Below are positions 37,674 to 64,000 of a stretch of DNA of 64,000 nt, piece by piece (within the stretch, counting starts at the first letter, position 1; the number at the start of each line of letters is the position of its first letter). The stretch spans positions 1-64,000 of the forward strand of contig NZ_SSMD01000012.1 in the NCBI RefSeq assembly GCF_004799325.1, given 5' to 3'. A program made the translations under genes and the position numbers. Source of the stretch: Thalassobius vesicularis (GTDB lineage: Bacteria; Pseudomonadota; Alphaproteobacteria; Rhodobacterales; Rhodobacteraceae). The notes under the pieces were generated by a model. It did no database searches. It was not told the origin of the DNA and saw only the letters and a program-made list of their open reading frames with translations.

Positions 37674-37685
37674 GAGAGACTGGTC

Positions 37686-38309: not shown

Positions 38310-38382
38310 CCCTGCGCGTTCCTGCGCGCGACTGACCTAGCGCGTCCTGCGCCCTGACATCCTCACTCTCGGAGAGATCCCG

Positions 38383-38787: not shown

Positions 38788-38790
38788 GCC

Positions 38791-45531: not shown

Positions 45532-45533
45532 AC

Positions 45534-46043: not shown

Positions 46044-46044
46044 C

Positions 46045-47015: not shown

Positions 47016-47028
47016 AAGGACAGGAAAC

Positions 47029-47271
47029 ATGTTGGACAGGATCGAGGACGCGCTCTTCTGGGCGGTCAGTTCTCTTGTGGGGGCGATTGCCTCGGGTACG
47101 CTCTGGCTCATCCGGCGGGTGATCACCAATCAAAAGCAGATCGAATTGCTGCAGGCCGAGCTCAGCACCAGAGAAAAGCAACGCGATGAGGATCGCGAGC
47201 GCATGGCCAAGATCGAATCCGGTGTCGAGCGGATCGAGGGCGTGCTCATGAAACGGGGAGCAGACAGATGA
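47029..47271 (+). CDS. Holin-like membrane protein
   Basis: An 80-residue protein with one clear membrane segment (LFWAVSSLVGAIASGTLWLI), a basic C-terminal tail and coiled-coil heptads (IELLQAELSTREKQRDEDRE). This fits small holins or anti-holins next to lysozyme. It starts at ATG 47029 with AGGA upstream and overlaps the lysozyme start. Confidence 0.65.
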   Translation: MLDRIEDALFWAVSSLVGAIASGTLWLIRRVITNQKQIELLQAELSTREKQRDEDRERMAKIESGVERIEGVLMKRGADR

Positions 47272-47768
47272 GAGTTTACAGAAAAGCCGGGCTGGGTCTC
47301 GCCAGTGCGGCGGTGCTGGCCGCTGCCATTCCCGGTGTCCGTCATTGGGAGGGGCGCAGCCTGCGCGCCTATCAGGATATTGTCGGGATCTGGACCATCT
47401 GTGACGGGGTTACCGATGGGGTGAAACCCGGTGATCTCGCCACCCCGGCGGATTGCGATGCGCGGCTCATGCAGGAACTGCGCAGCCATGCCGAGGGGCT
47501 CTCGGCCTGTATCGACGATCCGCTCGAGGCTCAGATCCCGCGCCAGACCGCGGCAGCCCTTCTCTCCTGGACTTACAATGTCGGAGTTGGCGCTGCCTGC
47601 GGCTCAACCCTGGTACGGCATCTGAATGCCGGGAACTGGGCCCGGGTCTGTCCCGAGCTCTCGCGCTGGACCCGGGCTGGCGGGCAGGTCATCCGCGGGC
47701 TCGTCAACCGCCGTGCCGCCGAGCGCGCTGATTGCGAGGCCGGACTGCATGAGGCGGGGCTGATATGA
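47268..47768 (+). CDS. Phage lysozyme (GH24, SAR-type)
   Basis: A 166-residue T4-type endolysin. A hydrophobic N-terminus (GLGLASAAVLAAAIPGV) suggests a signal-arrest-release segment. The catalytic glutamate is in HWEGRSL (E28), and GIWTICDGVTDG follows. It hydrolyses peptidoglycan for host lysis. It overlaps the holin and spanin genes. Confidence 0.88.
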   Translation: MRVYRKAGLGLASAAVLAAAIPGVRHWEGRSLRAYQDIVGIWTICDGVTDGVKPGDLATPADCDARLMQELRSHAEGLSACIDDPLEAQIPRQTAAALLSWTYNVGVGAACGSTLVRHLNAGNWARVCPELSRWTRAGGQVIRGLVNRRAAERADCEAGLHEAGLI

Positions 47769-48019
47769 TCGGGCGGCTTGCCGTGCCGGTGCTGATCGGT
47801 GTGTTGGGGGCGGTCCTCGGCTGGAGTGTGCTCCTGCATCGTGAGAACCGGCAGCTGGTCCGTCAGATCTCCGTGCTCGAAGGGCAGATCTCCGGCTGTC
47901 AGGCCCGCACCCGCAACATCACAAAGGACAAACAAAGCGATGCGACTGTTGCTGATCCCCGCACTTACCACGTGCCTGAGCGCTGGCTCCTGCCTGACCC
48001 CGACGCCGCCCGCGATTGA
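47765..48019 (+). CDS. Inner spanin (Rz-like)
   Basis: An 84-residue protein with one N-terminal membrane segment (LAVPVLIGVLGAVLGWSVLL) and a periplasmic helical part (RENRQLVRQISVLEGQI). This is the layout of inner-membrane spanins. It overlaps the lysozyme stop and the outer spanin frame. Confidence 0.78.
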   Translation: MIGRLAVPVLIGVLGAVLGWSVLLHRENRQLVRQISVLEGQISGCQARTRNITKDKQSDATVADPRTYHVPERWLLPDPDAARD

Positions 48020-48164
48020 AGCGGCGCTCTTCTGCGATGTCGAGGAACCCCGGCGGTTTACCCAGGCCGAGATCGACTGGCGTAGTGAAAACGCGCCGTG
48101 GAACCTCGCGCGGGACTTCAGGACCAACCTCAGTTGGGAACGGGAGTGTGGGGGAGGGATATAA
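47940..48164 (+). CDS. Overlapping outer spanin-like (Rz1-like) protein
   Basis: A 74-residue frame starting inside the Rz-like gene in another frame (ATG 47940). It has an N-terminal signal-like stretch (LLLIPALTTCLSAGSC) with a weak lipobox, then FCDVEEPRRFTQAEIDWRSEN, a pattern common in alphaproteobacterial prophages at this site. Overlapping spanin genes are the norm in lambda-like phages. Confidence 0.7.
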   Translation: MRLLLIPALTTCLSAGSCLTPTPPAIEAALFCDVEEPRRFTQAEIDWRSENAPWNLARDFRTNLSWERECGGGI

Positions 48165-48465
48165 TCCTCCGGGGTGCGGTCTTCGCCAAATCCTGGGTCA
48201 ACGAGTTTGCGTTCGATATCGGGAAATAGCCGCCAGCTGGCATGTGACCGCGAAGGTGGTGGGGATGAGAGCCAGGGCCTGGACGGGGCAGGCTGGAAGC
48301 GCCGCAGCCACAAATTTGGCAGAGCTGAGCGAGTGTTTGCGGCCAGACCTATTGCTTCCGTTAGGCGAATGGGGGCTTGCCATCGCAATACGTTTGTGGC
48401 CGCTTCGCTAAGATGTGGGTAAAGCACAGTACTATCGATGCGGAACATTTGTAGTCTCCACCGTT
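48165..48465. other. Junction between prophage and defence island
   Basis: About 300 bases with no gene I can support; short frames on both strands look like shadows. It probably contains the right prophage end, but no repeat or attachment site can be matched because the left end is not in the window. It also holds the 3' end region of the RelE-UvrD gene. Confidence 0.5.
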
Positions 48466-50637
48466 TTAAGGGCGCATGATTTTGCTGGGGTGTCCAGACC
48501 ACGAAATCCGCAATGACTTCTTCGCCCGAGTGGCGGCGACGTGCAGAAGGGAGCGATACTGAGTGACGATATCTTCGCGATCAGCTGCATCAACGGCCGA
48601 TTTCAGTGCCCCGGGCGGTGGGAAGGCGGACTCGGCCAGGAAGGGGATCGCCACGGCGAAAAACTCCAGCCCCTTGGCGCGGTGCATTGTCGTGATCCGG
48701 ACCCCGGGCACGGACCGGTCATCAGCGCCAGCCTGGAGAACCACTGTCTCGATACCGTCCGCCCGCAGCGCCGCGCTAACGCGCTCAACATCTGCGCGGC
48801 GCGCACAGAGGATTCCGATGTCCGAAAGTCGCACGTTTTCCGATGGGAGACTGCGAACCCAGGTTGAAACCCCTTTCAGTTCTTCGACTTCCGAAGTGCA
48901 GCCGACCAGTTCAGGCGACACACCATGCAGGAGGCTGACATAGCCCTTGAGGGTATCGCTTCCCTCATCGAGATCATCGACGCTGACGCCTTCCAGAACC
49001 GAAACAGCCCACGACCTGATTTCCTGCGTCGTCCGGTAGTTGAGCCTGAGCCGCTTCGAGCGGCCGCGCACGTTGATCCCGCAGCCCGCCATACTGGCGC
49101 GGCGCCCATAAATCCTCTGGTGCGCATCGCCCACGATGAAAAGGGAATTTCGATCCCCGGATGGACCTTCCGGGACGATCGCCCGGATCAGACGGAAGGC
49201 CTGCTCGCCCATGTCCTGCGCCTCATCCACGATCACGGCCGCATAGGGGAGGTTCGGTGCCTCGGAGGACAGGATTTCGATCGCTTCACGATAGGCATCA
49301 TCCGGCTCGGCGAGCCCCTCACTCACCACTCGGGCTCGATAGTCAGCGAAGATGTCCCATAGAGCGGCCCGTTTTCGGCGGTCAAGCGGCGTACCGCGTC
49401 CGGCCCGGGATACCTTGAGGTAGGCCCTTTGATCCATCAGACCTTTCGCCTGAACGATCTGTGCCCATTCCGCGCGGATGAACGGTTCCGAGAGGCCCTC
49501 GGGAAGCTCATGGTCGTCGAACACTTCGCGCCAGATCTGGTCCAGCCGGTCCCGCGCTTCCCCGAAGAACGCGACCTCGCGGGCGAAGCTTTTGCGCTTG
49601 AGGAACTGGGAGACCCAGCGATCGAGGTTGATCACTTCGATCCGGGGCGGCCGGGCAGCCAGATGCTCCGGGCAGAGGGTCCGGAGGTTCGCTTCGATAT
49701 CCTGTGCGAGACTGGTCGTGAACGTGGTCAATAGAACCCTTTGACCGGCCCTGGTCAGATCCTGTTCGATCTGATCGGCTAGGTGCTTCGCCCGGTGCAT
49801 GGCGACGACGGTTTTCCCGGTCCCGGCGCCCCCGCGCACCATGGCCGGGCCGTTATAGTCCCGGTAGGCGAGCTTGCGTTGATCGGGGTGCAGGAACACC
49901 CGCCAGCCTTCGAGCCCTTCCTCGAAGACGCGCCGCAGTTCCTTTTCATCTTCGGGGATGAAGATGGTCTGGCGGCTCTCCTCGGTCTCGATCATTTGAT
50001 CGAAGGTCAGGTCGGCCGGTGGGGTTTCCGGGGCGGTTTCCGTCTCTTCCGGAACGCCCGTCAAAGCATAGACTTCCTCGTCGGAATAGCCCGCAGCGAG
50101 CGCATAGAGGATCTGATAGGTCAGCGGGTCGAACCCCTCTTCCGCCTCTTCGAGCCCCTCGATCGATGTAAGCGCCCGGACGGCTGGGATTTCTTCGTCC
50201 GGAACACCGAGGGCCTTCAGCCGTTTATCGGTCACTGCCGAGAACAGTCGCGGCTCTTCCGCGACTTGGGGCGCAGCCTCGACGACGGTCACGTCGAGTT
50301 CCTCAACGACGCGGATCCGGTTCGTGTCCGGGTCCAGTTTGACCCGCCGGTTTCCGGCCCAGCGGTAGGCCTTGTCGTGTTCGTTGACGTGCACGAACAT
50401 GATGTCGCGGCCGACCTCGAAAGCGATGGCCCGGTACCCCTGATCGACCCGGAGGGATTTGATCGAGCTGTCTTTCGCACCCTCCACAGTCTCGAGGTTG
50501 AGCCCGTTCGCGGACGGGTCCGACATATAGCGGGTCATCATATCCATGAAGCGCAGCGCCACCTTGTCGGGGAGCTTCCGCAGGCTTTTCATGCAGCCGA
50601 TGTCATAGGAGACCCGCTTGTTGATCGCGTCCATCAT
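48466..50637 (-). CDS. RelE-like domain fused to UvrD-type SF1 helicase
   Basis: A 723-residue protein. Residues 15-105 resemble a RelE/ParE toxin fold (SIKSLRVDQGYRAIAFEVG, FVHVNEHDKAYRWAGNRRV). A linker to about 255 follows. The helicase has Walker A RGGAGTGKTV (268-277), motif II VIVDEAQDMG (about 478), YRTTQEIRSW, and C-terminal motifs VRITTMHRAKGLEF and HVAATRAKKSLRI. It starts in overlap with the stop of the DEAD helicase gene (ATGATG), so it is co-translated. It is the last gene of the defence operon. The RelE part probably serves binding rather than toxicity; this is inferred. Confidence 0.85.
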   Translation of the reverse strand: MMDAINKRVSYDIGCMKSLRKLPDKVALRFMDMMTRYMSDPSANGLNLETVEGAKDSSIKSLRVDQGYRAIAFEVGRDIMFVHVNEHDKAYRWAGNRRVKLDPDTNRIRVVEELDVTVVEAAPQVAEEPRLFSAVTDKRLKALGVPDEEIPAVRALTSIEGLEEAEEGFDPLTYQILYALAAGYSDEEVYALTGVPEETETAPETPPADLTFDQMIETEESRQTIFIPEDEKELRRVFEEGLEGWRVFLHPDQRKLAYRDYNGPAMVRGGAGTGKTVVAMHRAKHLADQIEQDLTRAGQRVLLTTFTTSLAQDIEANLRTLCPEHLAARPPRIEVINLDRWVSQFLKRKSFAREVAFFGEARDRLDQIWREVFDDHELPEGLSEPFIRAEWAQIVQAKGLMDQRAYLKVSRAGRGTPLDRRKRAALWDIFADYRARVVSEGLAEPDDAYREAIEILSSEAPNLPYAAVIVDEAQDMGEQAFRLIRAIVPEGPSGDRNSLFIVGDAHQRIYGRRASMAGCGINVRGRSKRLRLNYRTTQEIRSWAVSVLEGVSVDDLDEGSDTLKGYVSLLHGVSPELVGCTSEVEELKGVSTWVRSLPSENVRLSDIGILCARRADVERVSAALRADGIETVVLQAGADDRSVPGVRITTMHRAKGLEFFAVAIPFLAESAFPPPGALKSAVDAADREDIVTQYRSLLHVAATRAKKSLRISWSGHPSKIMRP

Positions 50638-53600
50638 GTGTTCATCTCCTGTAGTGCCTGTATAACTCTGGTGACCGTCTCGCCGATTGGATCGCTCTCC
50701 GGATCAAACGGGATGAGCCGCCAGCTCCCCCCCTCGCATGGCGTTTCCGCGATCGCGACGCCAGCCCCCTCCCAGCCAAACTCCATCATCCCCACGACCC
50801 GCCCCTCGACGAGGAGGTCATCCCCGAACCGGTCCGGGCCTGGCACTTCGGCTGCGATCAGGGCGTCGATCAGGGGGTGGAACAGGTCATCACAAAGGGC
50901 CCGGGCCTCGAGCCAGGCTTCGGTGTCCGCATCCGTCGGCCCGGTCCCGACCGACATATCGGGTGGCGAGAGCGTGTCGAGACCCGCCAGTTCAACGTGG
51001 AAACCGCGCACTCCCTGGAACAGATTGACGAGCCGCCAGAGACCACGCCAAGCCTCGGCGTAGAGGGCTTTCGCCGCAGGTTCGTGGCCCGGATCAGGGA
51101 GTTCCGCGCGCAGTAGAAGTCGAATATCGGCGTCTGTTCCCGCCCATTCCGTCGGAGAGATCTGCTTGCAGGCCAGATAGAGGTCGAGCACTCCCGCCCC
51201 GACATGCTCCGTCAGGCCCGGTGTCAGCAGGAACTGCCGCCCCTCTTCCGTCAGGGAGGCCTGGTGTGGCAGCTGATCGAGCGGACGCCCGGTCGCAACG
51301 AAGCCCCGGGTCAGAATCGAACGGCCCGGAAGTCCATCGTCCCGTGCACCATCCAAAAGGCGCCAGAAACCCTCAAGGGAGCTTTCCCCCTGAAGGGCAC
51401 GGACACCGTCGATGTGATCTGCGAAGCCCGGGAAGGCGCACACCCGGGCGAGCCGTCCGACCTTCTCCCCGCTCAGGGCCGGTTCCGAGAGCGGATTAAG
51501 GTAGGACCGGTTCTCTGCGTCGAGGTCTGCCCAGGCGAGGGTCCAGACCCTAACCTGACCAGACCGGATCATCAGGATCCGGTCGAGCAGGTCCTGGGCG
51601 ACGGTATCGGCGTGATACTCAAGGCCATCCATCTCCAGAACGACGGGCACCGCTCCGGTCTGACCGGTGGGTGTAAGAAGGAAATCGACCCGTTTGCGGG
51701 GGAGACCCTTGAAACGGGCATCGATCTGCACCTGGGGTTCGATCGTCCAGAGACGAGGCCGGTCTTTCGGACCCGCGCGCAGCACAAAACCGCGACGCCC
51801 GCCCGAGAGAACCTGCGGGGTCAGTGCATCGTCCCCATACCGGTTCGCAAGGGCGTTCAGGAGGCGCTTCTCAAGCGCACTTTCGACCATGGCGTCCCGG
51901 ATCGACGCGTCGATCCCGGTCTCGGTCCGGCTGAGGCTGTCCCACTTCTGCAGGATCGCGTCCATCATTTGACGGGCTCGATCCCGATCCGGCTCGCCAG
52001 GTCCGAACTGGAAGCGGTACGGCTTCACGCAGCGGAAGCAGCCGTTCCGGTCCGGTTCCTGGTTACAGGGACAGTCCCGTAGCGCCTCCGCCGCACGACT
52101 GATCACCGCCTTCATCGTGTCCGGGTGCTCACCAACCTGTCGCAGATACCCGGACCCGCCAGGGACCGCATCATAGAGGTAGAGGCTGCGGACGGTGGTC
52201 ATCCCGTCGAGCTGGGCTGCGAAGATCGTGGAGCGGAGGTGGTCGACCTTCCCCGCGAAGTGTCGGCGCATGCCAAGGTTGATCGCCGCGACGAAGCTCT
52301 TCAGATCATCGTCATCCGCCTCGCCGACGACTGGGATCACGATCCGGATCGCTTCGGTATCAAACTTCCGCATCAGGAAGACCCCGGTCTCCCATCTCTC
52401 ACGGGCGAGATCCGGTTCGCGAATGACCTTACAGCTAGGCGGATGGGTCCCACGATCGTCCTGGTCCTTCGCCGGCCTCTGCAGCGTGCCGCAATGACGG
52501 CAGATCAGGAACGGCTGCGCGGGTCTCTTCTCGCCGGCGATTTTCGGGCCAGGAAGTGCGGATTTCGGGCCGAAGTTGAAATCCCGGAAGGTACAATTGG
52601 GCAAGAACTCGAACCCGAAGGGCGCACCATTGTCCCGGCTCGTGAACCACGAAGAGGCGATGTCTTCCGGCCCGTGGAAGGGCATGAGAACTCGGTCGAA
52701 CTGACGCTGGTCGCGCTGATCCCCATCTCGGATCGCTGCCTTCTCCTCGCTGTCGACAGAGATCACGGATTTGAGCTGGACGACATCGTGGTTGGACCCA
52801 GAGTCGGACCACATCTCATCCCCGCAGCGCGGGCATGTGTTGGTTTCCGCGCCCTCAATCCGGTGCGCGACATGGGAACAGGAGGGACAGAAGGTCCAGC
52901 GGTTCAGATCTTCCTTCCCGATCTCAATCCTCTCGATTTCGACCTGTCGCCCGTTCGCATAGAAGAACTGGCCCGGTGCGAACTCTGACAGGGCCGAGCT
53001 GGCCGGTCGGGAATACTCCACGTAGAGAAGTCCGTCCTCGTCCTTCGACGCGGTCTTGGAAGGATCGTTGCGGCGCGACAGGATCGAGGTGAGTTTCACG
53101 CCCTCTTCCGGGAAGGCGTAGTTCGGCAGGATCCCTTTGTCGGTGAGGAATTTGATAACCGCCACGTCGTCGATCCCGCTGCGGATCAACCGGTTGATCT
53201 CGGTTCGGTCACGCGCGATCTCGCCCTCGCGATTCTCGAACTCGTCATCGGTCAGCTCGGCGCGCCGTTTCCGCAGCCGGGTCAGCTCCTTCGTGGCCTC
53301 CTCGCGCTTCTCGATCAGTCGAGCCTTCTCGGCGGCAGCGCCATCGAATGCCGCGCCGATCCGCCATCCGATCGAGGTTTGATCAGTCCCGGTCAGGAAG
53401 CCGCGAACCCGGTTCACCAGGTCAGTGCGCGCCTGAACATCTGGCGGAAGCCCTGCCAGGAAGGCCGTCGCCAACTCGTCCCCTCTGGCTCGGACCAAAT
53501 CCAGCCATTCAATGGGGAAACCCTCCGTCGCCCCGGAGGAGCGGCGTTTCAGGACATCGCGCACCTTCCCGTAATCCCCCGCCTCGGCGGACGCCGCGAC

Positions 53601-56600
53601 ATAGGTATCGAGGGTGAAGGCCGTCACCTGACGCAGAAGGACCTCTTCGGCCGCGAGGAAGACCCCCGGTGGGCGCACCTGCCCCGCCAGCATCGGGGTC
53701 GGATCTTCCCAGAACTGAAGGTCGTGGGCCCGCGAATTGGCGAGGACCATGTTCAGGGCATTCCCGTCGCGCCGCCCGCTCCGGCCCATCCGCTGGACGT
53801 AATTCGCCTCCTCCGGGGGCACCGAGCCCAGAAGCAGGGTCGAGAGGTCCCCGATGTCGATCCCCATCTCAAGAGTTGGGGTCGCGGAAATCAGGTTCGG
53901 TGCCCACCGTGTCTCGCCCGTGATGAACCCGGTCTCGACCCGCAGCCGCTCATCGGTTTCGAGGATGCCGGTATGCTCGCGCGCGACCACCCGGTGGTTT
54001 CGGTTGGATTGAAGGGATCGGCGCAGAGCCGGGCGCGGCGGCATGCCCGCTACCACAAGATGCCCGGAACAGCCGATCTTGGTGCAGGGGGATCCCGCCG
54101 CAAAAGCCTCGTTCTCCTCGAGCGCCGTCTCCTGCCGACCACAGCGATCACAGGTGAGCCCGATTGTCCGGGTCGTGACCGTGATCTTGTCCGGGTCGAT
54201 CAGCCAGGCGTGCCGGTTCTGCCCGTCCGGGCCGTTAACCCGGCGCAGGATGCTGTCCGCCTCAAGGCGCTGCAGAACCATCGGGTAGATCGTATCCGGG
54301 TCCGTTCCATAGCGGATATCTTCCGGACCCAAGGTCCGGAAGAGCCAGTCCCGATACCAGCTCACCCCCTGCGATTTCGTGATGCGCTCATACCCGATCG
54401 GTGGGTAAGCCAGCGTTACCGGGATGGGCGCAAGGCCGCGCCGACTGTCCGGGGTCGGAAGCGTTCCGGTCCTGCCGACCCCCATTTGGGTCGCCGCTGC
54501 GAACCAGTTCAGGCCGCGAGCGCCCGAGGCCGTGGCAATCGCGCTGGCGATATAGGGATGCGCGACAGACCCTTGGCGGCGCATGCGCTGCACAACACCC
54601 GAAAGGAACCGGGTGAGAACCGCGGGATCAATGTCCGGGGCACCGGGGAGGTCGTTCTTGAGCTCGCGGGCAAGCCGTTCCGCAGAGGCGCTGAGGAGGT
54701 CACTGGAGACATCCGCTGCGGCCATGCCGTTCGCTTCAAGCGCGTGACTGAAATGCGAGCGATAGCTCAGGTCGACGAAATACTCCCACCCGAGACGCAG
54801 CGTCATATGACGAAGGAAGCCCGTATCGGTGATCGAGGTCCCGGCTCGGATCAGGTCCTGATATCGGCTCCGCCACGTCTGCTCTTTCGGAATATAGAGC
54901 GCGGTGAAGGCATCCGGCCCATGTTTTTCGAGCTCCGCGGCAGGAACGGTTTCGATCACCTCCGCGAGGCTCATCCCATCGGTTTCGGCTTCCTCAAGGG
55001 CGGTGAAGAGGGATTTCTGGTAGACCGAGAGGGCGTTCCGGGTCTCGGCCACCGCCGCCCGGTGCGCCGCATCCTGCACGGAATCCGAGAACATCAGAAA
55101 CCGCGGCTTCGCCTCCGGCTCTTCCTCGTTCTGAGCAGAGGTATAGAGGGTCCCCGTGATCCCGGTCGTCAACCGGGCGGCCCGCATCCCGAAGAGCAGG
55201 AGACCGCGCGCCTGACCGCAGGCCGGGCAGGATCGGTCGATCCGCCCGCTCGTTGCATCCGTCGGGTCATACATCCAGACCGGTGCGGCGGGACCGGTTT
55301 CGAGATTGTCGTGGTCCGACGGGGTAAATTCGATACTTTCGGCGTCCAGAAGCCCCTTCACGATCCGCACACCGCCGCCGGACGCCGGGATCATCCGATC
55401 AAGGGTCTCATGATAGAAGAGCCGGATCTTTCCGCCGGCGTTGTCATCGAAAAACTCTTCGTAGAGCTGCTCGAGCGGGGCCCAGCAGGCGGTCGAGTTC
55501 GGGTTCAGCCGCCCGACATGGGCGGTGGCCCCGCAGCGGTTACAGTTCACGATCGGGAGCGAGCGACGCAGGGCGTGCCTGTCGAGATCGAGGGCGTGGA
55601 ACAGGTCCATCCGGGACCTGACGCCCCCCGCCTCGGTCCGGGGCAGATTCGTCACCATCCGCGCCATTTCGCGGATCCAGAGCTGAAGCCGGACGTTGAA
55701 CAGGGGCCTTGGACTCTCGGCCGAACCGGACCGGGCCCAGGCGACCAGCGCCACGACCAGCTCCGCGAGCGCGCGGTGATCAGCCTCGGACCAGTCCCGC
55801 AGGACCCGGACCTGTCCGAGCCCGGCTGCGATTGCCTCAAGCGGGGCCGGACCTTTATGTTCGGCGATGATCTTGAGGACCCGCTGACAGAGATGGTGTT
55901 CTTTCAGCCGCTCACCAAGCGCGATCCGCCAGGCTGGATCAGCGGCATCGCCCTCGTCGAGGAAGGCGAGGTCCGGATCGGCCCGGTCCGGAAAAAGGGC
56001 TGTCGCCAGGCGATGTGCGGCGGCGGCCTGGTCCATTTCTTCCGCTTCGCGCAGGGCCGCGTGGATGTCCGTCGGATCCGGCCGCTCGAGATATTCCGGG
56101 TCTCCGAACACCTCGTTCGGCGTCTTCCGGGTCTCCGTCACCACCGCCCCTTCATCGAAGGGTTCCCCGAAAATCGTCTCGGCATACCGCCGCAGATCGA
56201 CCTTCGCGTCTTCACCCGCGCCGAGCGTGGCCGAAGACCCCACGCAGATCAGATGACCTTTCGGGGTGTTCAGGCGGTGTTTCAGGCGGCGCAGCAGAAG
56301 GGCGAGGTCCGCCCCTTGCGCCCCGTCGAAGGTGTGCATCTCGTCCACCACCAGAAACCGGAGCGTCTCCGGGTCGTTCTGCGACCAGAGCGGCTTGTCC
56401 CGGCCGCGCAGCAGGAGATAATCCAACATCTTGTAGTTCGTGAGAAGAATATCTGGCGGGTTTTTCCGCATCGTTTCCCGATGCGTGATCACGCTGTCCG
56501 CCGTCACCTCATGGGTCGCGTTACTCGGTTCCTTATCCGCATAGATCCCGGCCCGAACCCCGCTCAGGGACGGGATACTGGAGATCGCAGCCGCGATCCG

Positions 56601-57038
56601 GCGCGCCTGGTCGGTGGCCAGCGCGTTCATCGGGTAGATCAGGATTGCCTTGATCCCGGGCTTCCCCTTGTTCCGCCGACAGTGGTCCAGGATCGGCCAC
56701 AAATAGGATTCCGTCTTACCCGACCCGGTCCCGGTCGCGACCAGCGTCGAGCGCATCGTCGCCCCGCTCAGCCTGGCGAAGGCGTCCGTCTGGTGCTGGT
56801 AGGGGGCGAATTTCAGCGGCACCTCCGGGAAGGGTTGCGCCCATGTCTCCTCCTTCGCCCCGTCGATCTGCCGGAACGGCATGTCGACCGAGATCCACGG
56901 CCCCTTCAGGAAATTCGCGGGCTCGGCGATGAACCGGTCCACCATCCCCTCGAAGGCGGGGCTGGAGCTGTTCAGCGTCGTGTGGACCAGTTCGCGCAGG
57001 CTGTCCTGCACATGACGGGCGAGGAGGATCGGGTTCAT
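50634..57038 (-). CDS. DISARM-related DEAD helicase with DUF1998 and nuclease-like domain
   Basis: A 2134-residue protein. The N-terminal SF2 helicase has Walker A ATGTGSGKT (about 101-109), motif II VVDEMH (about 231-236), SATLGAG (about 284), and C-lobe TLEMGIDIGDL with MGRSGRRDG (about 1056-1085). Zinc-like CDRCGRQ lies near 975. A DUF1998 Cys cluster with PGGSGYLRQVGEH and CPCNQEP/CFRC lies at about 1630-1675. A restriction-endonuclease-like segment VDFLL/LEMDGLEYH follows near 1780-1810. It looks like DrmA and DrmB joined. It is one base from the upstream methylase stop. Confidence 0.85.
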   Translation of the reverse strand: MNPILLARHVQDSLRELVHTTLNSSSPAFEGMVDRFIAEPANFLKGPWISVDMPFRQIDGAKEETWAQPFPEVPLKFAPYQHQTDAFARLSGATMRSTLVATGTGSGKTESYLWPILDHCRRNKGKPGIKAILIYPMNALATDQARRIAAAISSIPSLSGVRAGIYADKEPSNATHEVTADSVITHRETMRKNPPDILLTNYKMLDYLLLRGRDKPLWSQNDPETLRFLVVDEMHTFDGAQGADLALLLRRLKHRLNTPKGHLICVGSSATLGAGEDAKVDLRRYAETIFGEPFDEGAVVTETRKTPNEVFGDPEYLERPDPTDIHAALREAEEMDQAAAAHRLATALFPDRADPDLAFLDEGDAADPAWRIALGERLKEHHLCQRVLKIIAEHKGPAPLEAIAAGLGQVRVLRDWSEADHRALAELVVALVAWARSGSAESPRPLFNVRLQLWIREMARMVTNLPRTEAGGVRSRMDLFHALDLDRHALRRSLPIVNCNRCGATAHVGRLNPNSTACWAPLEQLYEEFFDDNAGGKIRLFYHETLDRMIPASGGGVRIVKGLLDAESIEFTPSDHDNLETGPAAPVWMYDPTDATSGRIDRSCPACGQARGLLLFGMRAARLTTGITGTLYTSAQNEEEPEAKPRFLMFSDSVQDAAHRAAVAETRNALSVYQKSLFTALEEAETDGMSLAEVIETVPAAELEKHGPDAFTALYIPKEQTWRSRYQDLIRAGTSITDTGFLRHMTLRLGWEYFVDLSYRSHFSHALEANGMAAADVSSDLLSASAERLARELKNDLPGAPDIDPAVLTRFLSGVVQRMRRQGSVAHPYIASAIATASGARGLNWFAAATQMGVGRTGTLPTPDSRRGLAPIPVTLAYPPIGYERITKSQGVSWYRDWLFRTLGPEDIRYGTDPDTIYPMVLQRLEADSILRRVNGPDGQNRHAWLIDPDKITVTTRTIGLTCDRCGRQETALEENEAFAAGSPCTKIGCSGHLVVAGMPPRPALRRSLQSNRNHRVVAREHTGILETDERLRVETGFITGETRWAPNLISATPTLEMGIDIGDLSTLLLGSVPPEEANYVQRMGRSGRRDGNALNMVLANSRAHDLQFWEDPTPMLAGQVRPPGVFLAAEEVLLRQVTAFTLDTYVAASAEAGDYGKVRDVLKRRSSGATEGFPIEWLDLVRARGDELATAFLAGLPPDVQARTDLVNRVRGFLTGTDQTSIGWRIGAAFDGAAAEKARLIEKREEATKELTRLRKRRAELTDDEFENREGEIARDRTEINRLIRSGIDDVAVIKFLTDKGILPNYAFPEEGVKLTSILSRRNDPSKTASKDEDGLLYVEYSRPASSALSEFAPGQFFYANGRQVEIERIEIGKEDLNRWTFCPSCSHVAHRIEGAETNTCPRCGDEMWSDSGSNHDVVQLKSVISVDSEEKAAIRDGDQRDQRQFDRVLMPFHGPEDIASSWFTSRDNGAPFGFEFLPNCTFRDFNFGPKSALPGPKIAGEKRPAQPFLICRHCGTLQRPAKDQDDRGTHPPSCKVIREPDLARERWETGVFLMRKFDTEAIRIVIPVVGEADDDDLKSFVAAINLGMRRHFAGKVDHLRSTIFAAQLDGMTTVRSLYLYDAVPGGSGYLRQVGEHPDTMKAVISRAAEALRDCPCNQEPDRNGCFRCVKPYRFQFGPGEPDRDRARQMMDAILQKWDSLSRTETGIDASIRDAMVESALEKRLLNALANRYGDDALTPQVLSGGRRGFVLRAGPKDRPRLWTIEPQVQIDARFKGLPRKRVDFLLTPTGQTGAVPVVLEMDGLEYHADTVAQDLLDRILMIRSGQVRVWTLAWADLDAENRSYLNPLSEPALSGEKVGRLARVCAFPGFADHIDGVRALQGESSLEGFWRLLDGARDDGLPGRSILTRGFVATGRPLDQLPHQASLTEEGRQFLLTPGLTEHVGAGVLDLYLACKQISPTEWAGTDADIRLLLRAELPDPGHEPAAKALYAEAWRGLWRLVNLFQGVRGFHVELAGLDTLSPPDMSVGTGPTDADTEAWLEARALCDDLFHPLIDALIAAEVPGPDRFGDDLLVEGRVVGMMEFGWEGAGVAIAETPCEGGSWRLIPFDPESDPIGETVTRVIQALQEMNT

Positions 57039-57039
57039 C

Positions 57040-60000
57040 TCAGGCGGCCTCTTCGGATTTCAGCCGCTCGAAATGAGCCCAGGCGCGGCGGTAGTCCTCG
57101 ATCCGGTCGCACTGGGTGAAGGGGCCGACGAAGTGGCGGGTGACGGTGCGCGGGCCGCCGGGCATCGTGTCGTCGATGGCGGTGCAGGTCAGCTCGGACG
57201 GGTTTTCGGCGAGAATCTTTTCCCATGCCGCACGGCCAGGGCTCTTGCCCTTTTCATCGAGCCAGCCGACACTAGGCAAGCCCTTTGATCGCGTCCAGAC
57301 GATCCGGCCGTTCTGATCGTACCAAGTAGCGGCCTCATTCTCATTCAAGATCGGAAAGTATATTCGATATATTTCAATCAATTGTTCAAGGTTGAGGCCA
57401 AAAGCCATAGAAACCAAGACATCGATTTCTACCAATGCCAGTCTACGAGAATATTCGGTACGCAACGCTACTGAACGGTTCCAAGTTGACCTATCTTTAC
57501 CATACGCAAGACCCTCGAGCCGGTTATCTTCTGAGGACCAAGTAGTTGGAGCTGAGTTTGGCGCGTGCCGCTCCCAAAGGTCTGAGTAAGTGTCCGACAA
57601 GCAAGAGAGCACGAGAGCCCTGTGACGAGCAGTCTTGTCAAGCTTTGCCCACGGGAGTCTTCTAGCATCCTTGTCGTGAAGATTGAGCTTGCCACCGGCC
57701 TTGATCAGAAAATCAAAAGGTATGGAGAATAGTAGAGCCGCTGCGTTAAGAAGATCATCTTCATTTGCGAACGCAATACTCTCCACGCTATTGACGTGCA
57801 TAACGCCGGGAGGAATTATGCAAGAAACGAGACTTCTTTCGTTCGTCAAGCCAATCATAGCTCGTATGGCAAGCCTGTAAAAATCTGAGTGCCGTCTGGA
57901 ATGATCCCATACACATCGCGTCATTCGACTACGATAATCGGATATCTCTATCGCGGGATGATAATTAGTACGAGGAAGATAGTCACCAGGCGCGTCAACA
58001 AGATCAATTACATTGTAGGCTTTGTTTGAATTGCAGATCGCCTTTGGCGATTTGTAGAAAGGATTGCCGACATAGAAAAGCGGCCCCTGCAAAACCATTT
58101 CACTAGCCAACCGGAAGCCTGTTTCACGCAGGATTGTTCCATCTTTCTGGGAGGAAGTTTCATTCCAGCCTGCGGACATTTGCCACCCAGCAACGCGGCG
58201 CGCAGCCGCTCCATCGGATACGCTTTGGATTGCACTCTCTAGCTTTGTTGCCGATGCCATCCGTTTAAAAACAGTCATCGTGTCGCTGGAATAGGGTGGG
58301 ATAAAGCGAGTTTGATTCACAGGAACCCCGTCCAGCTCTGCCAGCTCATGAATAACCGACAGATTGACCTTATCCATGTGGACAATGCGCTTGCGGTGGC
58401 CGGTCACATTCCATGAGCCATCAGCGAGCTTGCTTCCGGGGATCTCCCCTACACCGTCATGCAGATAGGAGTCTTCAATTTGAGACGGCAAAAACGCACC
58501 TGAAAACAAGTCGAAGCTCGGTTCACTATCTACGCCGCGGTATATATTGACTGAGAATCGAATTTTGTTGTTCACCTCAGAAAAGTTTTTACTCTTAATT
58601 TCATTTCTTATTTCAAAGTACTTTGCAATTCGACGGTACCAACTGATGCGAAAGCCGGCAGAGTTTGGGTCAGTTAAATGGCCATCTTGATGAATTATGG
58701 CGGCATATCCCATTTTAGCTGTTAAACGTAGTGAAAGATCTACAAAACAACGATAGAGGTTGTTTGAACCTCCTCCTGCGAAAGGGTTCATCACCTCAGA
58801 CGAGGTTACCTCCATCGCCCCCCGGGTCGACACGAAATCCTGAAGGAAGGCCTCCACCGCCGGAACCAGGCGCCCCTCGCGCCGCACGGACGGCGCCTTC
58901 GGTAGCGCCTCGGGCAAGACCTTCTTCGCGTCCGACGCCGACAGTCCCGCATGAAGTGGGTCGATATCCGCCAGCACCAGTCCCTCGTTCCAAGACGGCT
59001 TGGCCCAGGGCGGGTTCCCGACGATCACGTCGAACCCGCCGCGCGCCTTCATGATGTCGGCGAAGATCAGGTCGAAATGCACGAAGCGCTCGCGCTCGGC
59101 GACTTCGACCGCGACACCGAGCCAGTCGAAGGTCTCGATCAACGCCTCGACATTCGTTTCGCGGAACAACCCATCCTGCCGCTTGGCGGCGGCCTTGAAC
59201 AGGTCACGCGCGGGCGCGTCCGGCTCCATCAGATCAAGGAAGTCCGGGGCCGGATCGGCGAACTCGTCCATGCTGGGGGCGGCCAGTGATCCGTCCGGGG
59301 TAAAGCCCCCCTCCAGGATCATCGCCATGCCCTGCAGGAACTCGGCTCGGCTGGGCAGCAGGTCCGCCTTGTCCAGTGGCCAGAGCCAGAGGGCACACCA
59401 CGCGTCCATCGCGGTCTTCAACCGCTTATAGGGAAGCGTGTTCGTGGCATGATCGGCCCCGATCAGGTGGGCGTTCAGCTTCTCCTTGGCGTGGAAGTCG
59501 AGGCCCTTGTTCCCAGCGATGACCTTGTCCGGCCAGAGCGTGATCGCGTCATTCGCCGCGGTCCGGGTCTTGGCGAGATCCTCCGCCACCTGATCGAACA
59601 GCGCCTCGGCGACCCGGCTGAGTTTCTGGACCAGCTTGACCTCGTGGGGTTCGAGCTTCTTGAAGAAGCCATCCTTGCGCCAGGCCTTGATCCGGTCCTG
59701 CGCATCTCCCGCGAAGGGGGCGATCGACTTGTCTTTGTCGAAGTTCGCCATGTCCTTGGCGGGGAGCAACCACTGCCACACATGGTTTTCCGGCAGGCGC
59801 TTGCGCCAGCCGATCTCGTCGGGTTTCGCGGTGAGCCAGAGGTCCTTCTGGGACCTTGCGTTGAGAAGCGCGGGGGCATAGGCGGCCCGGCGGGCGCCGA
59901 TCAGGGAGTTCCCGGCGTGGAGCTGGTCCCCGAACCACGGGGAAAAGTCGCTCGCGTGCAGACTGTTCAGCCAGAGCGAGATCGCCCCGAGTTCCACGGC

Positions 60001-61941
60001 GATGGGGTTGAGGTCGACCCCGAAACAGTTCCGGTCCGCAATATAGGCCCGCACCCGCTGTTTCTCGAGGACGATCCGGTCCTGCGGGATCGTCTGGCCG
60101 GTCTCCTTCTGTTTCCGCTCGAGGTAGAGGTCGGCGAGCTGGTTCGTGGTTTCCACCAGAAAAGCCGCCGAGCCCATGGCGGGCTCGAGGATCTTGAGGT
60201 CCAGAAGTTCGTCGGCGGTCAGGTCCCGGCACCGCTCCATGAGCGCATGCTTCACGAGCAGCCGGGCGAGCGGTTCCGGTGTGTAATAGGAGGCGGATTT
60301 CTCCCGGTCCCGGCCCGCGAGGCGGTAGATGAAGGTGCCTTTCGGATAGACCAGCGCCTCTGAGCCGTTGAACACGATCTCCTCCGGGGCGAATTCGCCG
60401 ATCCGGTTGCGCGGCACGAACCAACTTGGGGCCAGAGGATCAACCTTGTCGCGGCGGAAGGTGTCGTCCGGCTCCGTGTCGTCGTCCCCGAACAGATCTT
60501 CTTCGACGTCGTCATCCGCATCCGGGGTGTCCGCATCGTCCCCGTCCTCGACCGCGTCATTCGACCGGCCTTTGCGGGGCTTCAGCTCAATGAGGTCTGT
60601 CTTTGCGACGACCCCCGTGAAAGAAATAAGCGTTTCATAAACCGCGCCGAGCTGACCGATCCCGAGCTTCGCATAAGAGATCCGGCCCGTGCTCTTGCCG
60701 GTGGACCGGAGCGAGAGGAGCCGGATTACCTTCTGGATCGCCTCGTTGCGCAGCATCAGTCCGTTCAGAAGGGGCGTACTCGCCGGGTCGAGAAGGGATA
60801 CCTTCACCGACGGCAGGCGCAGCCCGCTGCCCTTTTCCTCGTCGGCGAGATCAAGCCCGGTGTAGAGAAGCGTCAGCGTCCGCTGGAGGCTTTCCCAGAG
60901 GAAAGTTCCCTCCCGGTCTGCCGTGGTGCGCAGGGGCACCGACTCCAGATCGCGCAGCGTTTCCAGGGAATAACCTGTCGCATAGATCGGGTTCTTCAGG
61001 TCCAGCAGATTCAGCCGTGGGTTCGCCTCAGCGTAGAACAGGAACAGCATCCGGTACATGTAGCGCAGGCATTCGCGGGACAGCTCCGGCCCGTCGATCC
61101 AGACTCCCTTGTGTGTCCCACCGGTGACGTCGAGAACCTCTTGACCCAGAAGCTCAATAGCGTCCCGGACGGTCCGCTTCAGCGAGGTGGTGACGGCATT
61201 GGCGTTCCGCTGCGCCTCTTCTTCGAGCCGATCCGAGATCGGCGCACCCTGGTCCGGCACTCGGGCCTCCCGCGAGATCAGGCAGGCCATCACGGTCAGC
61301 GTGTCCCGGTCCGAGCGGGCGAAAATTTCCTGAAGATCGAACCGGAGGACAGACCGGGCCGGCCATTTCCTCTTGTCGATCAGCACGATCTGCGAAAGGC
61401 CGAGGACAAGAACATGGCGCGGTCCGTCGGCAAGTTCGAACACCCCTTCTGCCAAAATGGACTCGATCGTCCGGTCCAAAAGCGCCGCTTCGCCGGCATC
61501 GGCGAGAAACTGATCCGGCACAAAACACGCGCCGAGCGGATCCGCCGCCTCGTCCTCGGCGTCCGGAAGGGGCGACTCGATGATCCAGAGCGCATCCCGA
61601 CCGGCTGCGTCCGCCACCCGGGAGATCAGTGGAATAACCGGTGCGCCTTCCATCGCGGTGAACGCGGCATCGCGTTTCCAGGCATACCCGAGTGCGCCCA
61701 ACAGGGCGTGGTGCATCTCCCGGGTCAGTTCGGTCCTGCGTTCCAGGTCCGAACTGTTCCGGATCTGTCGAAGGCCTTCGATGCTCGAGGTGGCAACCCG
61801 GGACAACCGCTCAATCGGATGAGCAGACTTCTCAAGGCCCGCCCACCGCGCCGTGATATCAGAAAGCTCTTCCTTCAGAACATCTGAAAGCGTCCCGGAC
61901 GGGAAGAACTCGGCTTCGTTTTCAATACCGATCAGATCCAT
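57040..61941 (-). CDS. Eco57I/DrmMI-like N6-adenine DNA methyltransferase
   Basis: About 1633 residues from ATG 61941 (an in-frame ATG at 61992 overlaps the upstream gene). Motif I is LEPAMGSAAFL (about 583-593), followed by FGVDLNPIAVELGAISLWLN; motif IV is GNPPWAK (about 975-981). The N-terminal 500 residues match large Eco57I-type methylases. The target-recognition region (about residues 1050-1550) is encoded by sharply AT-rich DNA, unlike the rest. In DISARM the methylase marks self DNA; here it sits between the SNF2 helicase and the DEAD helicase. Confidence 0.88.
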   Translation of the reverse strand: MDLIGIENEAEFFPSGTLSDVLKEELSDITARWAGLEKSAHPIERLSRVATSSIEGLRQIRNSSDLERRTELTREMHHALLGALGYAWKRDAAFTAMEGAPVIPLISRVADAAGRDALWIIESPLPDAEDEAADPLGACFVPDQFLADAGEAALLDRTIESILAEGVFELADGPRHVLVLGLSQIVLIDKRKWPARSVLRFDLQEIFARSDRDTLTVMACLISREARVPDQGAPISDRLEEEAQRNANAVTTSLKRTVRDAIELLGQEVLDVTGGTHKGVWIDGPELSRECLRYMYRMLFLFYAEANPRLNLLDLKNPIYATGYSLETLRDLESVPLRTTADREGTFLWESLQRTLTLLYTGLDLADEEKGSGLRLPSVKVSLLDPASTPLLNGLMLRNEAIQKVIRLLSLRSTGKSTGRISYAKLGIGQLGAVYETLISFTGVVAKTDLIELKPRKGRSNDAVEDGDDADTPDADDDVEEDLFGDDDTEPDDTFRRDKVDPLAPSWFVPRNRIGEFAPEEIVFNGSEALVYPKGTFIYRLAGRDREKSASYYTPEPLARLLVKHALMERCRDLTADELLDLKILEPAMGSAAFLVETTNQLADLYLERKQKETGQTIPQDRIVLEKQRVRAYIADRNCFGVDLNPIAVELGAISLWLNSLHASDFSPWFGDQLHAGNSLIGARRAAYAPALLNARSQKDLWLTAKPDEIGWRKRLPENHVWQWLLPAKDMANFDKDKSIAPFAGDAQDRIKAWRKDGFFKKLEPHEVKLVQKLSRVAEALFDQVAEDLAKTRTAANDAITLWPDKVIAGNKGLDFHAKEKLNAHLIGADHATNTLPYKRLKTAMDAWCALWLWPLDKADLLPSRAEFLQGMAMILEGGFTPDGSLAAPSMDEFADPAPDFLDLMEPDAPARDLFKAAAKRQDGLFRETNVEALIETFDWLGVAVEVAERERFVHFDLIFADIMKARGGFDVIVGNPPWAKPSWNEGLVLADIDPLHAGLSASDAKKVLPEALPKAPSVRREGRLVPAVEAFLQDFVSTRGAMEVTSSEVMNPFAGGGSNNLYRCFVDLSLRLTAKMGYAAIIHQDGHLTDPNSAGFRISWYRRIAKYFEIRNEIKSKNFSEVNNKIRFSVNIYRGVDSEPSFDLFSGAFLPSQIEDSYLHDGVGEIPGSKLADGSWNVTGHRKRIVHMDKVNLSVIHELAELDGVPVNQTRFIPPYSSDTMTVFKRMASATKLESAIQSVSDGAAARRVAGWQMSAGWNETSSQKDGTILRETGFRLASEMVLQGPLFYVGNPFYKSPKAICNSNKAYNVIDLVDAPGDYLPRTNYHPAIEISDYRSRMTRCVWDHSRRHSDFYRLAIRAMIGLTNERSLVSCIIPPGVMHVNSVESIAFANEDDLLNAAALLFSIPFDFLIKAGGKLNLHDKDARRLPWAKLDKTARHRALVLSCLSDTYSDLWERHAPNSAPTTWSSEDNRLEGLAYGKDRSTWNRSVALRTEYSRRLALVEIDVLVSMAFGLNLEQLIEIYRIYFPILNENEAATWYDQNGRIVWTRSKGLPSVGWLDEKGKSPGRAAWEKILAENPSELTCTAIDDTMPGGPRTVTRHFVGPFTQCDRIEDYRRAWAHFERLKSEEAA
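57290..58795. other. AT-rich block inside the methylase gene
   Basis: Sampled 60-base lines at 57361 and 58561 contain 21 and 14 G/C, against 35 in a line at 59101. The change near 58790 is abrupt. The block encodes the expected target-recognition part, so a recent recombinational replacement of specificity is likely. Confidence 0.75.
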
Positions 61942-61945
61942 CCGC

Positions 61946-64000
61946 TCACCCCACAAATACCGCTTTGACATCGACATAAGGGTTGGGGTCATCCACCATC
62001 AGGCGGGTCCGCTCAAACCACTCTGTCCAGTCCTTGAACAGGTCCTCGATCTTCTTCTCTTTCGCGCGCCGGATCGTCAGCCGCCTCTTTTCAAGTGCGC
62101 TGAGGCCTTCGGTGGACTCCGCGGCCTCACCGAGATCGAGCGTCAGCTGGGCCTGAAAACGGCGCTCCAGCTCCCCGAGCCGGGTCAGGACAGCGTCAAG
62201 GTCCTGCTGGATCAGGGCTGCGCGTTCTCTCCCGAGCCCGCGCAGATGGGTCTGGAACCGGTCTACAGCGGTTTCGATCGCAGCCTGCGCAGGGCCCAGA
62301 TCCTCCACCGGACGACCAGGAGTATCCTGTGCGAGACGGACCCGGGCGATGAAGTCCGGCACCTCTTCGATACGAATATCCCCGTCCGCCCTCTGGATCA
62401 CGACAGCCCACCGGTCGACAACCGGGGCACCGTTCGCGTTCGGGATCGCACCATGCATCACGACCGCGACCTCTCCCTTGGAGAGAGCACTCAGGGGCGC
62501 GACCGGAGCGGAATGCTCTGGGAAAAAGGTGCTGGCCCGGTCCGCGAACCATTCGAGGATCGGGTGACCATCCCAGAGGTACTGCACGGTCGGCCAGGAC
62601 CGTTCCTGCATCTTCGCATGATCGATCGCCCGGTTGATCACCTGCGCCTGATCGGTCAACTCGACCCGGTCCCCGGCGCCGACCGCCTCTTCGGGCATGA
62701 AACGCCCATCGACCGCGCCCTCACTCGCATAGCCGAAACCATCCCGGGCCCGCATGTCATCCGGGATCGCGATCCGGATCGTCCGATCCCCCAGGGAGAT
62801 GTCAGGCGCAGACGGGAAGGCCCGCTCTTCGGCGCGAGACAACCGGCCGATCATCGCGGCCGCATAGCTGAAGGTATCCGGGAAAAGGCGCGGCGGCGCG
62901 CCCTCGGTGGCGGTGTCTCCATCCGCCTTTGTCTCGGCCGGGGCCGCGTAGTCCCCAAAGAGGGCCGCGAACTCGTCATCGAGAGACATCTGTGTCTTCG
63001 CCTCGTCCGCGCGGGCGTTCATCTGGGCGTCGAACGCATCTGCGCCGATCCCGGCTGAGACCGCTTCCGCGACGACAGCCTCTTCCTCGTCAGCGTCGCC
63101 TTTCCCGAGGAAAACGGCCGGGTCTCCGACCCCGGACTGCGCCGCTTCATCTTTTTCGACCAGCTTTTCCAGGACCCACATCTGCCGCACCTTAGGATGT
63201 GTGCTCTCGCCCACAAAATAGGTGATCAGCGGCGGGCGATCCTGACCATATCGATCGATCCGGCCGTTACGCTGCTGGAACCGCAGGAGCGACCAGGGCA
63301 GGTCGAAATGGATGAGGCGATGGCACTGGAAGTGCAGGTTAAGCCCCTCGGAGGCCATGTCAGAGGCGATCAGGATCCGGATCGGGGACTTTTCCTGCCC
63401 GAAGGCGTCGATCACTTCCTGGGTCCGGACATCCGCTTCGACGCTACCCCCATCCACACGCGCCACCTGACCCTCAGACAGGTCCAGATCCGCCTGAAGG
63501 CGCTCTGCGAGCCAGGACACGGTGGCGATGCGTTCTGAAAAGATGACGATCCTGTCCCGCGGCGCCTTTCCGGTCCAACGCAGGTCCCGCAGCATTTTGA
63601 GAAGGTCCTGATACTTCCGGAAGGCCCCCGTATCGATCGCCGCCACCTGATCTGAGAGATCGCGGAGCCGATCCCGGTCCTCTTCCGTGCCACGGGCGGT
63701 TCCGTTCTCGATTCCGCGGATGCGCCTCTCTAGAGTCTCGAGGCAGGCAGCCGGGCTCGAGAAGATCGCTTTCGCCAGCGTGGTTCGGAACAGATCGATG
63801 GCGCGACCCCGGGTCGATTGTTCATCGAGATCCAGATGCAGCTCTGCGATCGACTGATAGGCGATTTCCTCTTCGGGGCTAAGCGGGAAGTTTCTGCGGA
63901 CCAGTTGCCGCTTCGGGACCTGCTGCCCGATATCGGCGGCGACATTTTTGTCAGACCGGAACCGTCTGATAACCAGATCTTCGATATCCGATCGGTGCAA
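61946..64000 (-). CDS. DrmD-like SNF2-family helicase, C-terminal part (cut by right edge)
   Basis: At least 684 residues run off the right edge, with no start in the window. The visible C-lobe motifs are DRIVIFSERIATVSWLAERL, ILIASDMASEGLNLHF and RFQQRNGRIDRYGQ (motif VI). A long charged C-terminal extension ends in DDPNPYVDVKAVFVG. SNF2 helicases of this size followed by a large N6 methylase are the DrmD-drmMI arrangement of class 1 DISARM. The stop is 4 bases before the methylase start. Confidence 0.87.
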   Translation of the reverse strand: MHRSDIEDLVIRRFRSDKNVAADIGQQVPKRQLVRRNFPLSPEEEIAYQSIAELHLDLDEQSTRGRAIDLFRTTLAKAIFSSPAACLETLERRIRGIENGTARGTEEDRDRLRDLSDQVAAIDTGAFRKYQDLLKMLRDLRWTGKAPRDRIVIFSERIATVSWLAERLQADLDLSEGQVARVDGGSVEADVRTQEVIDAFGQEKSPIRILIASDMASEGLNLHFQCHRLIHFDLPWSLLRFQQRNGRIDRYGQDRPPLITYFVGESTHPKVRQMWVLEKLVEKDEAAQSGVGDPAVFLGKGDADEEEAVVAEAVSAGIGADAFDAQMNARADEAKTQMSLDDEFAALFGDYAAPAETKADGDTATEGAPPRLFPDTFSYAAAMIGRLSRAEERAFPSAPDISLGDRTIRIAIPDDMRARDGFGYASEGAVDGRFMPEEAVGAGDRVELTDQAQVINRAIDHAKMQERSWPTVQYLWDGHPILEWFADRASTFFPEHSAPVAPLSALSKGEVAVVMHGAIPNANGAPVVDRWAVVIQRADGDIRIEEVPDFIARVRLAQDTPGRPVEDLGPAQAAIETAVDRFQTHLRGLGRERAALIQQDLDAVLTRLGELERRFQAQLTLDLGEAAESTEGLSALEKRRLTIRRAKEKKIEDLFKDWTEWFERTRLMVDDPNPYVDVKAVFVG

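Follow-up and report, generated by a model that had tools for sequence, protein, structure and literature searches.

A probable ARMADA type II operon beside a Thalassobius vesicularis prophage, and a WYL gene that fronts different defence operons

The window analysed here is a stretch of 64,000 nucleotides from Thalassobius vesicularis, positions 1 to 64,000 of contig NZ_SSMD01000012.1 (C12 below, 65,896 bp). An ORF (open reading frame) listing places four long minus-strand ORFs at 48466-64000, and these genes, armA to armD, are the defence operon considered in this work. Together with the regulator gene in front of them they are arranged as follows.

Contig positions 64894 to 65856: WYL-regulator gene, 320 amino acids (aa), just upstream of armA and outside the window.
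61946 to 64000, minus strand: armA, SNF2/RapA (BrxHII/DrmD-like) helicase; 3' part only, cut at the window edge.
57040 to 61941, minus strand: armB, PglX/type IIG-like N6-adenine methylase, with an NPPW motif and an S-adenosylmethionine (SAM) motif.
50634 to 57038, minus strand: armC, YprA-family (DruE-like) helicase, 2134 aa.
48466 to 50637, minus strand: armD, GajB/UvrD-like helicase with an N-terminal RelE-fold domain.
50293 to 50637, minus strand: RelE-fold domain of armD, residues 1-115, from a predicted structure.

The four-gene operon that the original prediction had read from the DNA is thus present, and both it and armA continue past the window: the whole of armA spans contig positions 61946-64897 (983 aa) and is overlapped by 4 bases by the WYL gene. 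The armB ORF opens at 61992 (57040-61992, 1650 aa), where the listed ATG overlaps the armA stop; the in-frame ATG at 61941 is the more likely start because it gives a 4-base gap, as in three plasmid copies. The spacing between armB and armC is 1 base, and armC overlaps armD by 4 bases. Pfam found SNF2-rel_dom and Helicase_C in the 983-aa ArmA, Eco57I/N6_Mtase in the 1650-aa ArmB, DEAD, Helicase_C and MZB (the MrfA zinc-binding domain) together in the 2134-aa ArmC, and UvrD in the armD product (48466-50637). The best PADLOC matches were DrmD for ArmA, type IIG and then DrmMI for ArmB, DruE for ArmC, and C3a187 (NERD+UvrD) and GajB for ArmD. The model of ArmD residues 1-115 (mean predicted local distance difference test score, pLDDT, 81.8) matched 38 PDB entries (E<=0.001), almost all of them RelE/YoeB/YafQ/ParE/HigB-type or other toxins and one a 'conserved hypothetical'; the ArmD N terminus models as a RelE fold, and the description of the last gene as encoding a RelE-UvrD protein holds. 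Seven other copies share the four ORFs, at 32-82% identity along stretches of hundreds to thousands of residues, so these are not chance reading frames.

A four-gene system, ARMADA type II, was named and tested in Escherichia coli in the September 2025 preprint of Bell et al. (PMC12458937). It comprises a BrxHII/RapA-like helicase, a PglX-like methylase, a YprA helicase and a RelE-GajB helicase, in that order, and occurs in E. coli strains NCTC 12900 and ATCC 8739. All four genes were essential, protection was direct and non-abortive, and among eight point mutations six did away with protection and two weakened it. The Thalassobius operon has this gene order, ArmA-ArmB-ArmC-ArmD, and this domain content. 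We aligned the window proteins with the seven other copies (four from alphaproteobacterial plasmids and one each from an E. coli plasmid, an E. coli chromosome and a Nostoc plasmid) and found all eight published residues conserved: K136 and D236 of ArmA, G605 and N971 of ArmB, K110 and D234 of ArmC, and K266 and D454 of ArmD. In the two E. coli copies examined, the numbering of the preprint falls on these same residues. Identity of ArmA, ArmB, ArmC and ArmD to the chromosomal copy of E. coli strain 19SZHZ886Rt was 38.1, 37.7, 31.9 and 40.6%, respectively; the nearest copies were those of Martelella for ArmA (82.2%), ArmB (76.7%) and ArmC (79.0%) and that of Haematobacter for ArmD (81.5%). In a 17-row tree, which was built apart from the preprint authors' reference sequences and carried a warning about long branches meeting, ArmC grouped with 11 other copies of type II order (99% support in the Shimodaira-Hasegawa-like approximate likelihood ratio test, SH-aLRT), apart from four ARMADA-I-like copies.

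We consider the operon very probably to be ARMADA type II; this is the best explanation, and we take it together with the mechanism and the phage-cargo placement discussed below. The original prediction had proposed a distinct relative of DISARM, unless the operon exactly matched an already characterised system. ARMADA type II is that match, in order, domains and the eight mutated residues, and the claim of novelty falls. The system is already known, and the Thalassobius copy is a named system in a new host. The two share their four genes, gene order, domains and eight key residues. They differ in that the Thalassobius copy is alphaproteobacterial and lies beside a prophage with structural genes, whereas the published copy lies in a satellite-like island, and in that a WYL gene stands upstream in Thalassobius, whereas the main text of the preprint has WYL only in the title of a reference (PMC12458937).

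The four genes recur together in homologous copies. The same set occurs on Martelella, Gemmobacter, Microvirga and E. coli plasmids and on an E. coli chromosome, and with one extra gene on Haematobacter and Nostoc plasmids. The extra gene lies between armB and armC; in Haematobacter (L003:10728-11576) it has a weak M78-peptidase-like match just under the Pfam cut-off, and in Nostoc (L008:10972-11529) it encodes a MoxR-like ATPase. Genes of 282 aa also follow armB in loci L089, L092 and L146. The E. coli plasmid copy, which came from the protein search, was then used as a query against E. coli genomes, and a 4000-base piece of its armC was present in 518 of 5426; the window's own DNA gave no BLASTN match in E. 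coli genomes. Nearer to Thalassobius, no close ArmD was found in 60 related genomes besides its own, the next best being 29% identical over residues 42-712; matches at E<=0.001 in 35 of the 61 genomes (its own included) were mostly to short helicase motifs. ArmC was matched at E<=1e-100 in its own genome and in one other among 198 genomes of the family (residues 1382-2134, 76%). On plasmids, 108 records had ArmD matches at E<=1e-5, distant helicases included, and in 47 of them the match spans 80% of the query or more. ArmD relatives also occur on six viral contigs other than that of the window, and in five of these a long ORF lies directly upstream of armD (ArmC-length in four, cut by the start of the locus in one). 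The ARMADA II operon is mobile and patchy.

The neighbourhood of the operon is that of a phage, and two further features are needed to describe it.

255 to 48248, plus strand: prophage with VapE/Toprim primase, terminase, portal, capsid, tail and lysozyme genes and a repressor-like gene.
Contig C13 of the same genome (L053 794-13274): operon in the same slot of a second prophage, encoding YprA (1764 aa), SNF2 (932 aa), methylase (1457 aa) and HNH (249 aa) proteins.

The prophage that had been suspected next to the operon is a real one, with a GpA terminase, a lambda-type portal, a capsid protein, a lambda tape measure protein and a phage lysozyme; the repressor-like gene (255-1301) was assigned by eye. 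Its kin are phages of Rhodobacter capsulatus, RcHotPocket among them (18% of a 7.6 kb query aligned, at about 67% DNA identity), and IMG/VR classes the whole of C12 as viral. The prophage on C13 was compared in detail with the window at 35396-48248, where the two are 92-95% identical apart from a gap near 41.3-42.3 kb. Homology stops at window position 48248, 218 bases before the armD stop. On C13 (L053:3-14027) an operon sits between the lysis genes and a WYL gene 95% identical to that of C12. The YprA gene comes first and the BrxHII-like and PglX-like genes follow, as in published ARMADA type I, with an HNH gene in addition; for the SNF2 protein the top-scoring model is a DpdE model (613 bits). 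By gene order this operon is ARMADA type I-like, in a comparison made without type I reference sequences. With the same flanks and different operons, the two sister prophages hold two ARMADA-type operons in one slot, the cargo measuring some 13-16 kb. P2-like phages and P4-like satellites likewise carry changing defence genes at a constant position (PMC9122126); the Thalassobius phages differ from those hotspots in the size of the cargo and in a conserved regulator gene at one edge.

Three other observations concern the prophage itself. A minus-strand gene (window:10066-11694), whose 542-aa product weakly matches P-loop ATPases, lies in a low-GC stretch (about 44%) and is possibly further cargo. 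At window:16027-17328 a gene encodes a ParB-N domain fused to a DNA methylase, and at window:27553-27714 tRNA-Leu and tRNA-Met genes lie on the minus strand of the late region.

Related loci bear on whether the operon lies inside the phage or only beside it. In Histidinibacterium (L086), Tropicimonas (L110) and a viral contig (L070), phage early genes, a serine integrase, a small gene, the WYL gene and the defence operon are consecutive, with a further short stretch bearing an AlpA-like gene before the WYL gene in L110. In Tropicimonas, tail genes (by eye) and a lysozyme-like gene, 31% identical to that of C12, lie past the far end of the operon, and in both C12 and C13 the far end touches lysis genes. 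A circular order of lysis, operon, WYL, integrase, repressor, early and late genes fits all five. We found no match to a tyrosine integrase on C12 or C13. The genome has five serine recombinase matches, none of them on these two contigs; one is on contig C18, which also has the end of the gene starting at C12:8-253, so that the C18 arm fits C12, and one near the end of C10 is similar. Another Tropicimonas region (L167, G230 C20:100000-119999) has the same early genes and serine integrase, adjoined by genes of 1080 and 948 aa. The ARMADA II operon is probably cargo of a temperate phage.

We hold it rather unlikely that ARMADA II is instead a resident defence island beside which a prophage merely integrated. 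Related WYL and ARMADA-II modules do occur on plasmids with no phage structural genes listed alongside, matches to C12 late genes lie within 10 kb of only a few of 80 WYL loci (such as L085, L098 and L152), and C18 joins a chromosomal RND-type gene directly to the integrase arm. However, lysis genes, defence operon and WYL gene have the same order in both sister prophages, between flanks that are 92-95% identical, and L086, L110 and L070 hold early genes, serine integrase, WYL gene and operon in a row; one circular map accommodates all five.

To follow the shared edge of the slot we surveyed the best 80 of 110 relatives of the WYL gene in genomes, with a scan by two short peptide patterns, and viral contigs as well. 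Labels for the operons behind them came from a simple gene caller, from BLAST clusters and from PADLOC, which was run on 19 representatives and gave matches for 17 and none for two. Many of the loci end before the operon does, and some rows are near-copies (the WYL proteins of L086 and L068 are identical). Labels were obtained for 68 of the 80 loci, leaving 12 unlabelled: 19 BREX (four groups), 12 ARMADA I-like, 10 Mza, 7 HKD-Snf2, 5 Hma or Hma-like, 4 ARMADA II and 11 others. In the representatives PADLOC matched BrxC/PglX (BREX), MzaB/C/E, HmaB/C, DruF, SspC, type III and type I restriction, and HKD+Snf2. YprA, SNF2 and methylase genes were all seen in only 4 of the 12 'ARMADA I' loci (L113, L115, L135 and L149); an extra gene of about 645 aa precedes the YprA gene in 7, and L124 has a YprA fragment only.

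Together with eight other rows (the window, C13, three plasmids and three viral contigs), 76 labelled rows with 16 states could be placed on a WYL tree of 89 rows, in which 37 of the 82 inner branches are open (below 80% support). The labels require at least 33 changes on it, compared with 50-59 when shuffled (mean 54.75, 200 draws): in part the operons descend with their WYL gene, and often they have been replaced. Near-identical WYL proteins front different systems: BREX in L144 and ARMADA II in L146 (98.9%), BREX in L078 and ARMADA II in L089 (98.6%), and the two ARMADA-type operons of C12 and C13 (96.1%). When 15 loci of two subclades were compared along with C12 and C13, the WYL tails after DQQI[VI]L[LM]N varied by cassette, being close for the same cassette within a subclade; tails of a single cassette type also vary from one subclade to the other. 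This pattern places the site of exchange within the final WYL codons. Site-specific recombination at the junction was considered and set aside: in the 72 of 89 sequences that could be used, conservation of synonymous codons at DQQIVLLN is not exceptional, which makes ordinary homologous recombination the likelier route.

BrxR-type WYL regulators are already known beside diverse defence systems (Picton et al. 2022, PMC9122601). The Thalassobius gene resembles BrxR/CapW in its WYL domain and its position at the 5' end of a defence operon, a likeness drawn apart from the BrxR sequence; it differs in that one narrow WYL clade, up to 98.9% identical, fronts entirely different operons. What is added here is this near-identical front gene with swapped operons behind it. 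In the titles and abstracts of a partly covered literature we found no paper describing such a conserved-WYL operon swap for ARMADA. It is about an even chance, in our estimate, that phages and plasmids of the Rhodobacterales carry an immunity slot of this kind, in which whole operons (ARMADA I, ARMADA II, BREX, Mza, Hma, Druantia-like and others) are swapped behind the WYL gene, a shared infection-responsive switch, through recombination in its final codons, with block exchange in ArmB as a second layer.

Two other assignments of the operon were weighed, each starting from likenesses that the original prediction had seen correctly. A class 1 DISARM variant, with DrmA and DrmB fused and DrmC lost, would account for the best match of ArmA to the DrmD model (343 bits) and the match of ArmB to DrmMI (198 bits). 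The DrmA- and DrmB-like parts are indeed one protein, with DEAD, Helicase_C and MZB all in ArmC. Compared with class 1 DISARM (drmD, drmMI, drmA, drmB, drmC), the operon shares relatives of the SNF2 protein and the methylase; it has the YprA and zinc-binding parts in one protein, lacks DrmC and adds a RelE-UvrD gene. A type IIG model matches ArmB at 671 bits, and ArmC is matched at up to 331 bits by DruE models as against only 41 bits by DrmA. As the original prediction had noted, no PLD nuclease is visible: Pfam found no PLD domain in the four operon proteins or the WYL protein, and the ArmA matches to PLD_Helicase and HKD+Snf2 models fall within its helicase part. Other copies of the recurring gene set are nowhere annotated as DISARM, under annotation that is generic and plasmid tables that are incomplete, and the published tree puts ArmC outside the DrmA and DrmB lineages (PMC12458937). 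Having neither separate drmA and drmB genes nor a drmC PLD nuclease, the operon was rejected as a member of class 1 DISARM, and we regard this variant as very improbable.

A Druantia-type system with a DruE-like ArmC has in its favour that the best PADLOC matches of ArmC are DruE models, the closeness that had been pointed out, and it seems to us just as improbable, as no Druantia partner (DruH, DruA-D, DruM/F/G) is among the best 25 PADLOC matches of each operon protein, the preprint sets ARMADA and Druantia in separate clades (PMC12458937), and the YprA-like protein beside a DruF-like gene in L109 forms a very long separate branch in the 17-row tree. The profile searches that had been suggested matched relatives from both families and did not support membership in either, and ARMADA type II remains the assignment that we prefer.

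Two stretches of the ARMADA type II genes bear on how the system may work.

57493 to 58695, minus strand: part of armB with low GC and high variability, roughly residues 1100-1500 in the 1650-aa ORF; candidate target-recognition region.
51504 to 51896, minus strand: region of armC, about residues 1715-1845, that corresponds in alignments to the published Vsr-type nuclease; candidate nuclease domain.

The GC content of armB falls to 46-52% at about residues 1100-1600, from 57-66% before. We compared the Haematobacter and Martelella plasmid copies in overlapping windows of 100 residues; of 107 windows across the four proteins, the 11 with the lowest identity (39-71%) all belong to the part of ArmB that starts at residue 951, while most windows of ArmA, ArmC and N-terminal ArmB are 80-100% identical. 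The E. coli plasmid and chromosome copies are 40-80% identical at columns 1126-1225 and otherwise mostly near-identical. PglX and type IIG enzymes are the source of an analogy, by which the variable block would possibly be an exchanged target-recognition region. The main text of the preprint, the part covered here, does not contain the words methylation or TRD, has 'specificity' only in the title of a reference, and uses 'target recognition' only for the YprA zinc-binding modules (PMC12458937). For the YprA protein of type II it describes a BrxA-like insert, zinc-binding modules and optional inactive EEP/Vsr domains. At residues 1715-1845 or so ArmC conserves the motifs RxD[FY], DGxx[YF]H and DxxxR in alignments, and a DruE-type helicase-nuclease effector has precedent in Druantia III (PMC13192584).

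We propose that ArmB would recognise a short DNA sequence via its variable block and methylate host DNA as a mark of self. On unmarked DNA the ArmA (SNF2) and ArmC (YprA) motors could load and translocate, a Vsr-type nuclease at the ArmC C terminus may cut, and the UvrD motor of ArmD may process the exposed single strand, while its RelE domain would be an accessory that is structural or cuts RNA. The WYL protein would repress the operon until infection, and the operon would travel as temperate-phage cargo between lysis genes and serine integrase, exchanged whole behind the conserved WYL gene. What is published for E. coli is the need for the four proteins and for most of the motifs; in which order events occur, what methylation does and that the WYL protein represses are what we infer.

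Several points weigh against this account. The defence function of the Thalassobius copy is predicted from its genes. The ArmC C-terminal region had no PDB fold match at E<=0.001 (model mean pLDDT 54.9) and no Pfam or PDB sequence match, and the Vsr-type nuclease is an unconfirmed candidate suggested by motif conservation. In the passages covered, the E. coli mutant in the SAM motif kept partial activity (PMC12458937), and sequence-specific methylation by ArmB would go beyond what those passages state. Upstream of the WYL gene lies GCGTGTA-N9-TACACGC with a further half-site; the best palindromes of 88 loci scored 4.90 compared with 4.15 when shuffled, a weak indication of a WYL operator, and repression of the operon by the WYL protein is suggested by analogy. 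No attachment site was found, three 15-mers shared by the contig ends all lying in ORFs and none being convincing, and the assembly breaks at the WYL/integrase arm; for these two reasons we infer, rather than observe, a position inside the phage. The 3.9 kb contig C46 (L063) is a mosaic in which the WYL 5' end is copied once and the end of the integrase arm twice, along with an inverted repeat of 540 bases (arms 95% identical); C46 also has a repeat in common with the end of C12 and is possibly misassembled.

The Thalassobius copy confirms and extends the recent discovery of ARMADA, and the variable block of ArmB predicts that ARMADA recognises a sequence motif. The context weighs more: related prophages in one genome carry different ARMADA-type operons with the same regulator, a natural experiment on operon movement. 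If the immunity slot is real, the sister prophages would be a before-and-after pair.

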